Assembly: GCA_030530145.1 (NCBI GenBank)
Contig: JAUMVN010000017.1
Coordinates: forward strand, 1-51,574
Reading direction: 5' to 3'
DNA: 51,574 bases
DNA from: Coriobacteriia bacterium
GTDB lineage: Bacteria > Actinomycetota > Coriobacteriia > Coriobacteriales > Atopobiaceae
Positions 9,416 through 50,754 of this stretch are shown here, piece after piece. Both the position numbers and the translations under genes were made by a program. How positions within the stretch are numbered: the stretch's first letter is position 1; each line of letters opens with the position of its first letter. A model generated the notes under the pieces. The model was not told the origin of the DNA. It searched no databases and saw only the letters and a list, made by a program, of their open reading frames with translations.

Positions 9416-9473
9416 GGGCTTCTTCCTTTCGCGAGTTTCAACCCGGCCATTTTACCAGCTCCCCACCCAACCG

Positions 9474-9712
9474 AGAGCTTTGGGGACGTTGCTTCCAGCT
9501 CTCGAATGAGAGCTTTGGGGACGTAGGTTGTAACTCTCAAATGAGGGGTTCTGGGACACAGGTTGAGAAGAGATCCCAGGCTGGCGGCCCGTTGACCAGA
9601 TCAAATCAATTCGCAACGTGTGTCCCCAAACCTCTCGAACGAGAGCTGGAACCAACGTCCCCAAATCAGTCAAATGAGAGCTGGAACCAACGTCCCCAAA
9701 GCTGTCACTGGG
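9474..9712. repeat. Inverted array of TTTGGGGACGTWGGTT repeats, array 1
   Basis: Units of about 36 nt with core TTTGGGGACGT, a GTT or CTT step and an AGCTCTCAAATGA tail lie head-to-tail at 9474-9509 and 9509-9545, with a degenerate unit after. From about 9612 the same unit runs in the opposite orientation three times (GAGAGCTGGAACCAACGTCC then CCAAA). The last copy reaches the end of the kinase gene at 9705. The same family occurs at 15221 and 18274. Confidence 0.85.
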
Positions 9713-15207: not shown

Positions 15208-15220
15208 TACCGCCTCGAAT

Positions 15221-15290
15221 GACGAGTTTGGGGACGTAGGTTCCAGCTCTCAAATGACGACTTTAACCAACGTCCCCAAATCGGTCATCG
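15221..15290. repeat. TTTGGGGACGTAGGTT repeat pair, array 2
   Basis: One unit in plus orientation (about 15228-15257, TTTGGGGACGTAGGTTCCAG then CTCTCAAATGA) is followed by one inverted unit (about 15258-15287, ending AACGTCCCCAAATCGGTCA). It separates the GH3 genes ending at 15140 and starting at 15317. Confidence 0.85.
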
Positions 15291-18273: not shown

Positions 18274-18382
18274 GCTTTGAGAGCTTTGGGGACGTTGGTT
18301 GTGACTCTCAAATGAGAGCTGCAACCTACGTCCCCAAATCAGTCAAATGAGGGCTGCAACCTACGTCCCCAAATCGGTCAGA
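18274..18382. repeat. TTTGGGGACGTTGGTT repeats, array 3
   Basis: One plus unit (18277-18315) is followed by two inverted units (GAGAGCTGCAACCTACGTCC then CCAAATCAGTCA; GAGGGCTGCAACCTACGTCC then CCAAATCGGTCA). It begins 3 nt after the GH3 stop and runs to the ribosome site of cutC. Confidence 0.85.
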
Positions 18383-19535: not shown

Positions 19536-19662
19536 CAACATCTCTGCGTCTTAATTCGAATTCGCTGAGTAGAAAGCCAAGAGTAGGGCCAATCAACCGG
19601 CTTTTTGCTGTCGAGAACCCCTGAGCTACTCGCTATGTTCAATTTAAGACGCAGAGATGTTG
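19536..19662. repeat. Long-hairpin element A (GAGTAG family)
   Basis: The outer arm CAACATCTCTGCGTCTTAA (from 19536) pairs perfectly with its complement ending at 19662. Inside it, after about 12 unpaired bases on each side, GAGTAG (19567-19572) pairs with CTACTC (19626-19631), leaving a 53-nt centre. It lies between two convergent genes. Related elements: 23576, 27817, 50615. Confidence 0.8.
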
Positions 19663-23575: not shown

Positions 23576-23711
23576 CGGCCGACTTTTCCCGCTTTAAAAA
23601 TGGACTTGCCGAGTAGTAGAGGTTGAACCAGCTGCGTTTGCCAAGTTGACGAAGGTGTTCGACGGCAGAGCTACTCGGCACTTCCGATTTTAAAGCGGGA
23701 AAAGTCGGCCG
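23576..23711. repeat. Long-hairpin element B (GAGTAG family)
   Basis: The outer arm CGGCCGACTTTTCCCGCTTT plus AAAA pairs perfectly with its complement ending at 23711 (24 bp). The inner GCCGAGTAG (23608-23616) pairs with CTACTCGGC (23671-23679), with a 54-nt centre. Its outer arm sequence is unrelated to that of element A, yet the architecture is the same. Confidence 0.8.
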
Positions 23712-27816: not shown

Positions 27817-27960
27817 TGCAAACATCTCTGTGTCTTAATTCGGGATGGCTGAGTATTCAGTGCCTATTTTGCGGTGGCGAGCTGCTGTCGACCTGCGGAA
27901 ATGCCGACGGAAGACCTTTGGCTACTCGGCAAACTCAAACAAGACGCAGAGATGTTTGCA
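27817..27960. repeat. Long-hairpin element C (GAGTAG family)
   Basis: The outer arm TGCAAACATCTCTGTGTCTT pairs with the complement ending at 27960 with one T-G wobble. The inner GCTGAGTA (27849-27856) pairs with the region GCTACTCGGC (27921-27930); the centre is 65 nt. Its outer arm is nearly the same as that of element A, at another locus. Confidence 0.8.
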
Positions 27961-33312: not shown

Positions 33313-33804
33313 GGGCACCCGCCTCTCCTCGTTTGCCGTGGTTGGCCACTAGGATAGCGCGGCGCGGCGGCGGGCGCAGGATTCCCGGGAATGCGGGACG
33401 CCACAAAAGGGAGGGCGCCACAAAAGCGCGCCCTCGGCGACGCGCAGGTTGGGCGGCGCCACAGATGTTCGTTCTCGGCGACATGCGCGGCCCTTCTTGC
33501 CACAGAAGCGGGCCGCGGGCGACGTCCCTGCGTCGTCGCCGCCGCGGTTTTGTGGCAAGAAGGGCCTAGAACGTCGCCGGCACCGGGGTTTTGTGGCGGG
33601 CGGTCTTCGAGCGCCGCCCGTGTCGCGCCGCCGCGGCAGGAGGCTCCGCGCACCTGTCTGCGTCCGGCGCGCCGCGCGTTTCTTGCCATGCCCCGTTAAC
33701 CGAAAGGGTTATGTTCGGAAAACAACAACGGTTTACAGGATGTTAGGCTCTTCAACAAATAGTTTGCACTTGGGGAAGCGCGAACACAAAGGAGAGGAGC
33801 CATC
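33313..33804. repeat. Gene-free spacer packed with GCCACAAAA/TTTTGTGGC repeats
   Basis: In this 492-nt spacer GCCACAAAA occurs at about 33401 and 33418, the variant GCCACAG at 33455 and 33499, and the inverted TTTTGTGGC at about 33548 and 33591, separated by GC-rich 20-40 nt blocks (for example CTCGGCGAC twice). Two CTTCTTGCC/GGCAAGAAG 9-mers lie inside (33493, 33553). The last 100 nt (33700-33800) are AT-rich and probably carry the promoter for the gene at 33805. No coding frame here looks real. Confidence 0.6.
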
Positions 33805-39245: not shown

Positions 39246-41198
39246 CTAAATTCCCGCCGCCTTGGTGAGCCAGGAGGGCTGCTCGGAGCTGACCACGCGG
39301 GCGCAGATGTAGGCGTCGCGCGCGTCGACGGTGGCCACGACCTGCGCATCTCCGTTCTCGTCGGCTACGATCGCGCACACCTGGCCGTCGACGGGAAGAA
39401 GCCCGACGACGCGGTCGGCAACGGCGTCGTAGGCGAGCGTGGCGTAGCGCGGGTTGCGAATGGCCTGCTGCAGGGCGCGGCGCAGCGGCCCCGTGACCTC
39501 GGAGATCGATCGGCGCAGCTCGTCGAACGTGGCCTCGGTGGTCCGGCCGGCATCGGCCTTGGGCTGGGCGAACTGCGGCAGGTACGTCGCCGGCCGGCCC
39601 TTGGCGTTCGTCGAGAAGCACGTGAGCTCCCACTGGATGTCGCCGTCGTGCGGCTCGAGGACCGCGGCGATCGCATTGCCCTCGGCGGTGACCAGGCCCG
39701 TGTCGAACGCGGCGCTCGAGCCGTCGTCGGCCATCGAGAGTTGGTGCTGGCGGGCGATGCGGCGGTAGGTCATGGAGAGGTACTCGCGCAGGATGGCGCG
39801 GTCCTCACCCCAGTCCTCGGGCGCGGCGAGAGACGCGAGCTCCTCGAGAAGCTTGTCCCACGAGCCGAGGATTGCGAACTGGGCGAGCTCGGCCTCGGGA
39901 CTGACGGCATCCTTGAGCTGGTCTTCGTTGGCAAAAGCGGTCCAAGGTCCCGCCGCCTTGTGCTCAAGCGCGCCCATGCCGATCTCTTCGGGCGAGTCGG
40001 CCTCGATGCTCGCGAGGGCCCAGCGCTTACCTGCAACGGCGCGGGCGCGGCGTCGCAGGGTGACCATGACGGGCTCGCCGTTCTTGCGCTGGAAGCGCAG
40101 CGGGAAGCTGACCTCGCTGCGGGTGCCGGCGAGCGCGTGGGTCGAGCGGGCGATGCGGAAGTCCTCCTCGAGCGTCGCCATGGGGTCGACGTCCATGGGG
40201 AGCACCTGGTAGAGGGCCGAGAGGGGCTCGTCGGTCACGATGACGTCGGCGTAGAAGTCCTGGGGCAGGTCGTTGGCGGGGCGAGAAGGGCGCGGGGCGC
40301 GCGCGGGCTGCTGGGCCGGGGTCGGCTGAGGCTTCGGTGCTGGTGCGGCGGGCTGCTCGGGCTTCTCGTCGACGGGCTCGGGGGCGTAGGTAATCGTCAG
40401 GTGGATCGAGGGCTCCGCAGGTTGCGTGGGGGCCTCGCCGGGAACGCCGCCGTGTCCTTCGACTGCTCGGCGCTCGCCGCTGCGCGGCTCGCTCGCTTCG
40501 CGACTCGCGTCGAAGGACACGGCAGCGTCCCCGGCGAGGCTCGCGGTCTGGGAGTCGGCTCCGGCAGCGGAAGATGGGGCCGTCTCGGTTCCGTCGATGA
40601 CGGCGGGAGCCGTCGCTGAGATGGCCTCGGACTCGGGCACGGCGTCGGCGACAGTCTCAGCGTCGGGGCCGGACGCGGGCTGATTCGCGCCGTCCGTGGC
40701 GATCGGCGCAGCGGGCGTTGTTGGAGGCACCTCCGGGGCTGCGGGGGTTTCTTGTTGCTCAGTAGGCTTGGGCTCAGTCTCAACCTCGGGTACAACCTTG
40801 GGCTCGGGCACTGGTTCGGGTTCCGGCTCCGGTTTGGGCTCTATGTGCTTGGGGCGGAGGGGCTTGAGGTTCTTGGCGCCGCGCTTTTGCTTCCAGGGCT
40901 TGCCGGCGGGCGCCTTGTCGGAAGTTCCCTTCTCGGCGCGCGCCAGGGCGGCGTCGTACTCCTCGTTCGAGATGACGGTCACGAAGACGGCGCCCTTCTT
41001 GAAGACGGTGAGCTTGACACACTCGTTGAGCGCCTCGAAGAGGCTGCGCGCGTCGTCGAAGCCCAGGTCGGCGGGGGCGAGTCCGTCGGAGGCGAGCACC
41101 GACGTGGCACGGTCGAGGGCGGTCTGCTTGCCGACCCCGAGCTCTTGAGAGAAAAGGCGGTACAGGTAGAGGCGGTGTCCCGGCTTTATTTGAGGCAT
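39246..41198 (-). CDS. DUF3825 protein with N-terminal winged-helix-like domain
   Basis: The 650-residue protein has three parts. Residues 1-85 (RLYLYRLFSQELGVG to VISNEEYDAALA) look like a small winged-helix, possibly OST-HTH/LOTUS. Residues 95-300 are a low-complexity linker of Pro, Glu and Ala (PKPEPEPEPVPEPK). The C-terminus (about 310-650) matches DUF3825 as I know it: LAQFAILGSWDKLLEELASL, PEDWGEDRAILREYLSMTY, AAFDTGLVT. DUF3825 is reported with OST-HTH domains and is suspected to bind RNA. The linker carries a 32-nt inverted repeat at 40432-40540. The start 41198 is ATG. Role unknown; cytoplasmic. Confidence 0.8.
   Translation of the reverse strand: MPQIKPGHRLYLYRLFSQELGVGKQTALDRATSVLASDGLAPADLGFDDARSLFEALNECVKLTVFKKGAVFVTVISNEEYDAALARAEKGTSDKAPAGKPWKQKRGAKNLKPLRPKHIEPKPEPEPEPVPEPKVVPEVETEPKPTEQQETPAAPEVPPTTPAAPIATDGANQPASGPDAETVADAVPESEAISATAPAVIDGTETAPSSAAGADSQTASLAGDAAVSFDASREASEPRSGERRAVEGHGGVPGEAPTQPAEPSIHLTITYAPEPVDEKPEQPAAPAPKPQPTPAQQPARAPRPSRPANDLPQDFYADVIVTDEPLSALYQVLPMDVDPMATLEEDFRIARSTHALAGTRSEVSFPLRFQRKNGEPVMVTLRRRARAVAGKRWALASIEADSPEEIGMGALEHKAAGPWTAFANEDQLKDAVSPEAELAQFAILGSWDKLLEELASLAAPEDWGEDRAILREYLSMTYRRIARQHQLSMADDGSSAAFDTGLVTAEGNAIAAVLEPHDGDIQWELTCFSTNAKGRPATYLPQFAQPKADAGRTTEATFDELRRSISEVTGPLRRALQQAIRNPRYATLAYDAVADRVVGLLPVDGQVCAIVADENGDAQVVATVDARDAYICARVVSSEQPSWLTKAAGI
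40432..40540. repeat. Palindromic element inside the DUF3825 coding sequence
   Basis: Arm 40432-40463 (GCCTCGCCGGGAACGCCGCC then GTGTCCTTCGAC) pairs with 40509-40540 over 32 nt with two G-T type mismatches; the loop is 45 nt. It is in frame and falls in the low-complexity linker, encoding the SFDAS...VEGHGGVPGEA part. Confidence 0.8.
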
Positions 41199-42194: not shown

Positions 42195-42204
42195 GGAGCC
42201 GCTC

Positions 42205-42388
42205 GCGCCCCGGAAACGACGGTCGCAGCAATCGTGTGTGCCGCCCCGCCCCTTAACTAACGTTTGCAGCAACCCTGGCAAGAAAAGCGCCCCTTAAAGG
42301 ACGGTTGCAGCGGCACTTGGTTGCTGTAACCGTCGTTTAAGGGGCGCTCTTGCCACGGTTATTGCTGTAACCGTCGTTTAAGGGGCGC
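42205..42388. repeat. Cluster of five CGTCGTTTAAGGGGCGC repeats
   Basis: Three units in one orientation (42205-42231, 42247-42272, 42287-42312; type GCGCCCCTTAAAGGACGGTT) are followed by two identical 27-nt units in the other (42321-42347, 42362-42388; TTGCTGTAACCGTCGTTTAA then GGGGCGC). Inverted copies can fold into strong hairpins and could end transcription from both sides. Confidence 0.85.
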
Positions 42389-42410
42389 GTTGTTCGCTAC
42401 GGCATCCCGG

Positions 42411-43288: not shown

Positions 43289-43394
43289 GGGCGCGGGCCT
43301 TGGTTTCACGCGCAGTTCCGCACGAGCCGGACGCGACTTAATGTCGCGTCCGCGCGAGCAGGGCTGTTTGAGCATGAAACCAAGGCCCGCGCCC
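43289..43394. repeat. Nested long hairpin between ppaC and trmB
   Basis: The outer stem GGGCGCGGGCCTTGGTTTCA (from 43289) pairs perfectly with its complement near 43374-43394, and the centre holds a second perfect stem GGACGCGAC-TTAAT-GTCGCGTCC (43329-43351). It fills the gap between the two genes. Confidence 0.8.
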
Positions 43395-50614: not shown

Positions 50615-50754
50615 ATACCTGCGCGTATTGTGTAACTAAAATCAGATTCACTGAGTAGCAGGTCATTTCGAGGCTCTATTTCATTGCATCTTGTAGCTAA
50701 ATATCGCCGGCTACTCAAGAGTTTCAAATTAGGTTACGCAATACGCGTAAGTAT
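50615..50754. repeat. Long-hairpin element D (GAGTAG family)
   Basis: The outer arm ATACCTGCGCGTATTGTGTA pairs with TTACGCAATACGCGTAAGTAT, with G-T wobbles and one mismatch. The inner GAGTAG (50653-50658) pairs with CTACTC (50711-50716); the centre is 52 nt. It is AT-rich compared with its surroundings. Arms unrelated to A, B or C. Confidence 0.8.

Follow-up and report, generated by a model that had tools for sequence, protein, structure and literature searches.

What keeps the two arms of a long intergenic hairpin complementary when their sequence differs from copy to copy? Four elements, A (19536-19662), B (23576-23711), C (27817-27960) and D (50615-50754), raise this question in a 51,574-nucleotide stretch of DNA from a Coriobacteriia bacterium, which we call the window. 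A sequence-only reading had seen in them one architecture, with arms matched within each element and differing between elements, and had taken them for folded RNA or hairpin DNA under selection. We propose a different answer, to which we give about an even chance of being right: that they are dispersed, non-autonomous elements of duplex DNA, transposon- or REP-like, with two composite putative protein-binding ends around an asymmetric centre.

The earlier description of the four elements itself holds up well. All lie where they had been placed, gene context confirms that each is intergenic, and the TTAA or TTTAAAA step and the 52-65 nt centre are correct on a check of the sequence. The common architecture is real, with type IV arms in A and C, type IIa in B and type III in D (Table 1). 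The GAGTAG/CTACTC core was said to be fixed; this is so in A, B and D, but in C one side reads GAGTAT. The folds of A, B, C and D clearly outdo those of dinucleotide shuffles, with z = -6.8, -11.4, -5.8 and -7.0.

Table 1. Parts of the four elements in window coordinates (strand "." for the boxes)
Element	Part	Position	Strand
A	type IV arm (CAACATCTCTGCGTCTTAA)	19536..19554	-
A	GAGTAG box	19567..19572	.
A	degenerate centre word, 3 mismatches	19593..19606	-
A	CTACTC box	19626..19631	.
A	matching arm	19644..19662	-
B	type IIa arm (CGGCCGACTTTTCCCGCTTTAAAA)	23576..23599	+
B	GAGTAG box	23611..23616	.
B	centre TTTGCCAAGTTG	23637..23648	+
B	CTACTC box	23671..23676	.
B	matching arm	23688..23711	+
C	type IV arm	27817..27836	-
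C	GAGTAT box, one change	27851..27856	.
C	centre TTTCCGCAGGTCG, ~11 bp farther than usual from one box	27889..27901	-
C	CTACTC box	27922..27927	.
C	matching arm	27941..27960	-
D	type III arm (CGCGTATTGTGTAACTAAA)	50622..50640	-
D	GAGTAG box	50653..50658	.
D	degenerate centre region	50679..50690	-
D	CTACTC box	50711..50716	.
D	matching arm, some one-arm changes	50729..50747	-

The four copies are real but belong to a far larger family. A covariance model built from 28 copies finds about 66 loci in the genome; with one inside-out copy the total is about 67 intergenic elements of about 130-145 bp. An exact core, GAGTAG-N51..55-CTACTC, is present in 28 copies, whereas the reversed pattern is not found once. 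No named family of this kind was known to the sequence-only reading, and Rfam indeed has no match at gathering score. A published description was not found in the open-access literature, from which most subscription papers are missing, and the family is apparently unnamed and undescribed so far.

Small, non-coding and multicopy, with terminal inverted repeats, the element is built of two inverted end-modules, each a type-specific arm of about 20 bp, then 10 to 14 bp, then GAGTAG, which face an asymmetric central site. It is the outer arm that forms the perfect stem; beside the GTAG tag, pairing is only loose. A central word, TTTnCnCAGKT (degenerate in A and D), orients the element, B on the plus strand and A, C and D on the minus strand, and the asymmetry of the centre is seen only after the copies have been oriented in an alignment. 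Types I and II continue outward beyond the arms (CAAACTC...GAGTTTG), so the true ends of the element are uncertain. At two loci (L103 2501-2646 and L097 2501-2646) a nested GCTCCCTC...GAGGGAGC hairpin stands in place of one side of the core.

About 14 discrete arm types can be distinguished: besides I, IIa, IIb, IIc, III, IV and VI there are seven copies that are singletons or without assignment (copy L022, which the script assigned to type I, does not belong there). Within types I and IIa, the two cleanest, arm change per base is 0.03-0.04, while the cores differ at many positions. Compensated double changes exceed expectation, 7 against 0.4 in IIb and 12 against 2 in III. Cells with both sides changed number 181 in the alignment and 57.6 in shuffles (paired in 96% against 70%), which bears out the claim that pairing is kept through sequence change, and covariation in the outer stem is well above both shuffles and slid controls. 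The sequence-only reading had staked its case on further copies and on outer-stem covariation beyond the first four; both are found. In other genomes the arms are wholly different and the layout is kept (GCTAAGTGAGCRGGCAAA in G059, CATTTGTTGGGTGGTTTC in G093, GGAAATGGAGGTTC in G144). It had also been held that the ends of a simple MITE would stay the same, which ignores that arm types can be separate subfamilies.

A covarying stem is present, yet it is not specific to RNA. Template switching, which homogenises the arms of inverted repeats and is able to turn spacers round (PMC8604942, PMC8794818), is another possible source of matched arms. Since shared recognition of the two arms and template-switch copying between them would both keep the arms matched, RNA is not required.

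The spacing of the parts points to duplex DNA. When the arms were scanned for without a length constraint, all 38 type II sites (<=3 mismatches) fell into 19 pairs, with spans of only 115, 125 or 126. The span is 126 in 13 of 13 complete type III pairs, 133-136 in 13 of 13 complete normal type I pairs, and 125 in 8 of 8 pairs from the relatives G058/G059. Arm-to-arm spans are thus locked at 125-126 bp in types II and III and in the relatives, and at 133-134 in type I. Wherever the centre is clear, it lies 27 bp from GAGTAG; from the centre to CTACTC the distance is 26/27, or 15-16, or 37-38. The larger departures in length, mostly between the centre and the right box, are thus close to one DNA turn (-10/11 or +10/11); they rest on about 3-4 independent length events, because several of the -11 copies have a common GAGTATC core and are perhaps one event. 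Such one-turn steps fit better with proteins sitting on the same face of a DNA duplex; a hairpin loop would not be expected to produce them.

One copy (contig C23:19029-19144; L193:5030-5145) is inside out, in the order CTACTC-14-arm'-centre-arm-14-GAGTAG. Each arm-14-GAGTAG module is intact but reversed, and the central word TTTGCCCAGGT is still in between. The intact modules speak for the duplex-DNA reading, but this order is odd for a transposon end.

Where do the copies lie with respect to genes? According to a gene caller seeded with Pfam-confirmed genes, 21 copies have convergent neighbours, 39 co-directional and 6 divergent, and one more copy is at a contig end. The copy is closer to the 3' end of the upstream gene in about 31 of the 38 decidable co-directional cases (counted by eye). 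The family thus shares with REPs and REPINs that it is extragenic, multicopy and 3' of genes. The sense of the element bears no relation to the direction of the genes (22 against 17).

The core family is absent from G001, a genome of the same genus, and the orthologous spots in it, at the sites inspected by eye, are without the element. Because there are about 67 copies here and none at the G001 loci compared, we regard the family as dispersed. No target-site duplication was found among 24 type I/II-like copies, a weak negative given the uncertain ends. Downstream of a gene shared by the two genomes (L022/L115), G001 carries an unrelated hairpin instead. Closer relatives, G144 and G146, have in common some near-unchanged elements (L200/L202 first copy, L201/L204) and a neighbouring one with the arms swapped left-right and most of the core replaced. 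Between a Sir2-like gene and folP (assigned by sequence reading) the elements of the same two genomes differ in arm type, and the patch that holds them has diverged much more than the genes on either side. A search for empty sites among G143-G146 gave a single clear comparison, which held an element of another arm type and not an empty site. Different arm types at one orthologous site suggest that sites matter more than mobility. The right flank of L199 in G144/G146 contains a separate repeat of about 180 bp, about 80% identical, with dozens of copies per genome.

Across 397 genomes of the order, the core is commonest in family f3, at up to 34 exact-core copies; there it reads GAGTAGACC...AAACCGCAGGTAGA...GGTCTACTC and is joined to other arms. 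The genome of the window belongs to family f1, not f3. One f4 genome has 15 exact-core copies, and the other families have mainly chance-level single matches. Further copies in relatives are therefore also established, the same core being present in many genomes of the order. Type II arms have 9 unrelated matches in GTDB genomes, near chance. Viral contigs contain neither type II or III arms nor the core with its centre, and element B has no match in phages and plasmids.

No acting enzyme was found for the family. Arm scans of this draft genome and of the one-contig G059 yielded no autonomous copy with the same arms and no arms bounding a longer element. Y1 (RAYT/TIRYT) transposases are common in the bacterial family, and this genome has a single RAYT-like (Y1_Tnp) gene, at contig C52:19877-20209. 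We rejected it as the owner of the GAGTAG ends, its flanks being TTTGGGGACGTTGG repeats; the RAYT loci examined contain no GAGTAG modules.

Other repeats deserve a mention. Palindromic GGGGACGTTGG/GGGGACGTAGG repeats at 9473-9706, 15219-15288 and 18276-18380 of the window are of the same family as those flanking the Y1_Tnp gene, and look like TIRYT-type repeats. Hairpins of 178-223 nt in G001 (L120, L128, L130), in places tandem-doubled, have GCAGAAGTGGCCTTCGTGTGAG arms and a similar central ACCTGCGGTTT word; they may be a sister family within the genus. The window also contains a very stable hairpin cluster in which copies of a GCGCCCCTTAAACGACGGTTACAGCAA unit are nested in inverted and direct orientation (42204-42402), another long hairpin that lacks both GAGTAG and the centre word and has 20 bp GGGCGCGGGCCTTGGTTTCA arms and an inner GGACGCGAC stem (43289-43394), and stacked inverted repeats around GCCACAAAA words that form a hairpin of about 130 nt (33416-33598). 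A 32 bp inverted repeat, 94% complementary and 109 nt across, lies inside or overlaps a predicted gene (40432-40540).

We know several systems that the family resembles in part. GTAG-tagged REPs, BIMEs and REPINs with their RAYT (PMC3733652, PMC2817692) also have inverted GTAG/CTAC halves, lie between genes and 3' of them, occur in many copies and several types per genome, and leave no target duplication. A REP, however, is a hairpin of 20-40 bp that adjoins its tag. Here the tag lies inside the element and the arm of about 20 bp stands apart from it on the outer side; the asymmetric centre is conserved and the spacings are fixed. No short perfect hairpin rises from the GTAG tag, and none of the RAYT loci examined is flanked by the family's own repeats. 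TIRYT/TIRtron repeats (PMC3733652), represented here by GGGGACG palindromes, are dimeric, dispersed terminal inverted repeats unrelated to GTAG repeats. The G001 hairpins with TIRYT words resemble the GAGTAG family in their layout of arm, spacer and inner box, but the GGGGACG set differs from it in sequence and, unlike it, flanks the RAYT gene of this genome. With MITEs of DDE transposons, Correia, ERIC/RU-1 and similar repeats of 100-170 bp the family shares size, terminal inverted repeats, hairpin potential and intergenic dispersal. It differs from these in the absence of target duplications and of any parent transposon found, in its many arm types on one core, in the inside-out copy, and in spans that are locked with one-turn steps.

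How do the possible explanations compare? Strong folding and covariation are what a transcribed long hairpin selected for pairing would show, and a 3'-end location puts most copies in transcribed 3' regions. We still find a structured RNA family improbable, and with it the folded RNA or hairpin DNA first proposed: the arms are type-specific and near-invariant within types, lengths change by helical turns, the copies have no strand preference relative to genes, the order can be inside out, and Rfam has no match. Functionless palindromes matched solely by template-switch mutation are a very improbable explanation. Arm homogenisation and spacer inversion are known for this process (PMC8604942, PMC8794818), and the swapped arms in G144 and G146 agree with it, but identical arms at unlinked loci, fixed spacings, the constant GAGTAG and centre and the 3'-end location would be left unexplained.

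Two further explanations are somewhat better, though we consider each unlikely. The copies could be REPIN/TIRYT-like elements, GTAG-tagged halves in one hairpin, moved single-stranded by a RAYT-type (HUH, IS200-like) transposase without target duplication. Facing GTAG/CTAC tags as in REP dimers (PMC3733652), the missing target duplications, the REP-like location 3' of genes, the many Y1 transposases of the family and the similarly laid out G001 hairpins with their TIRYT words (GGGGAC/GGGACAG) are consistent with this. Yet the only Y1_Tnp gene has unrelated ends and the RAYT loci examined are without GAGTAG modules, G087, which carries three elements, is absent from the set of genomes that match Y1_Tnp, and a single-strand substrate would not be expected to show helical-turn spacing. 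Or the copies could be non-mobile nucleoprotein sites of the host chromosome (insulator, roadblock, domain or segregation) in many specificity classes. Arms much more conserved than cores, the 3'-end location, the geometry retained inside out, and close relatives that keep an element of another arm type at the same site argue for it; the absence from the orthologous places checked in the same-genus genome and copy numbers from 0 to 34 among related genomes argue against it, and for about 14 classes a single genome would need a large set of cognate proteins, of which none has been identified. Arm-type switching is the most novel feature of the family. Doubtfully, it might mean that nucleoprotein complexes assemble at sites throughout the chromosome whose core is constant and whose arms serve as many orthogonal, interchangeable addresses, the arm type being switchable between close relatives at a conserved site, with site and geometry unchanged (27 bp, then one-turn steps).

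Under the duplex-DNA reading that we favour, proteins would bind the arms (type-specifically) and the constant boxes, and would join both modules on one face of the helix. The resulting nucleoprotein complex, or its movement in trans, would hold the arms near-invariant while the core drifts. The two arms may stay matched since the same protein would have to read both, perhaps aided by template-switch copying between arms.

If this is right, one bacterial order harbours a widespread class of intergenic element that apparently has no name, and covariation, the usual mark of a structured RNA, would here reflect matched protein-binding ends on duplex DNA. That would be a warning for RNA discovery based on covariation. 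Some 14 diverged end specificities on one core would also provide a natural case for studying how the ends of mobile elements, or DNA addresses, diversify.
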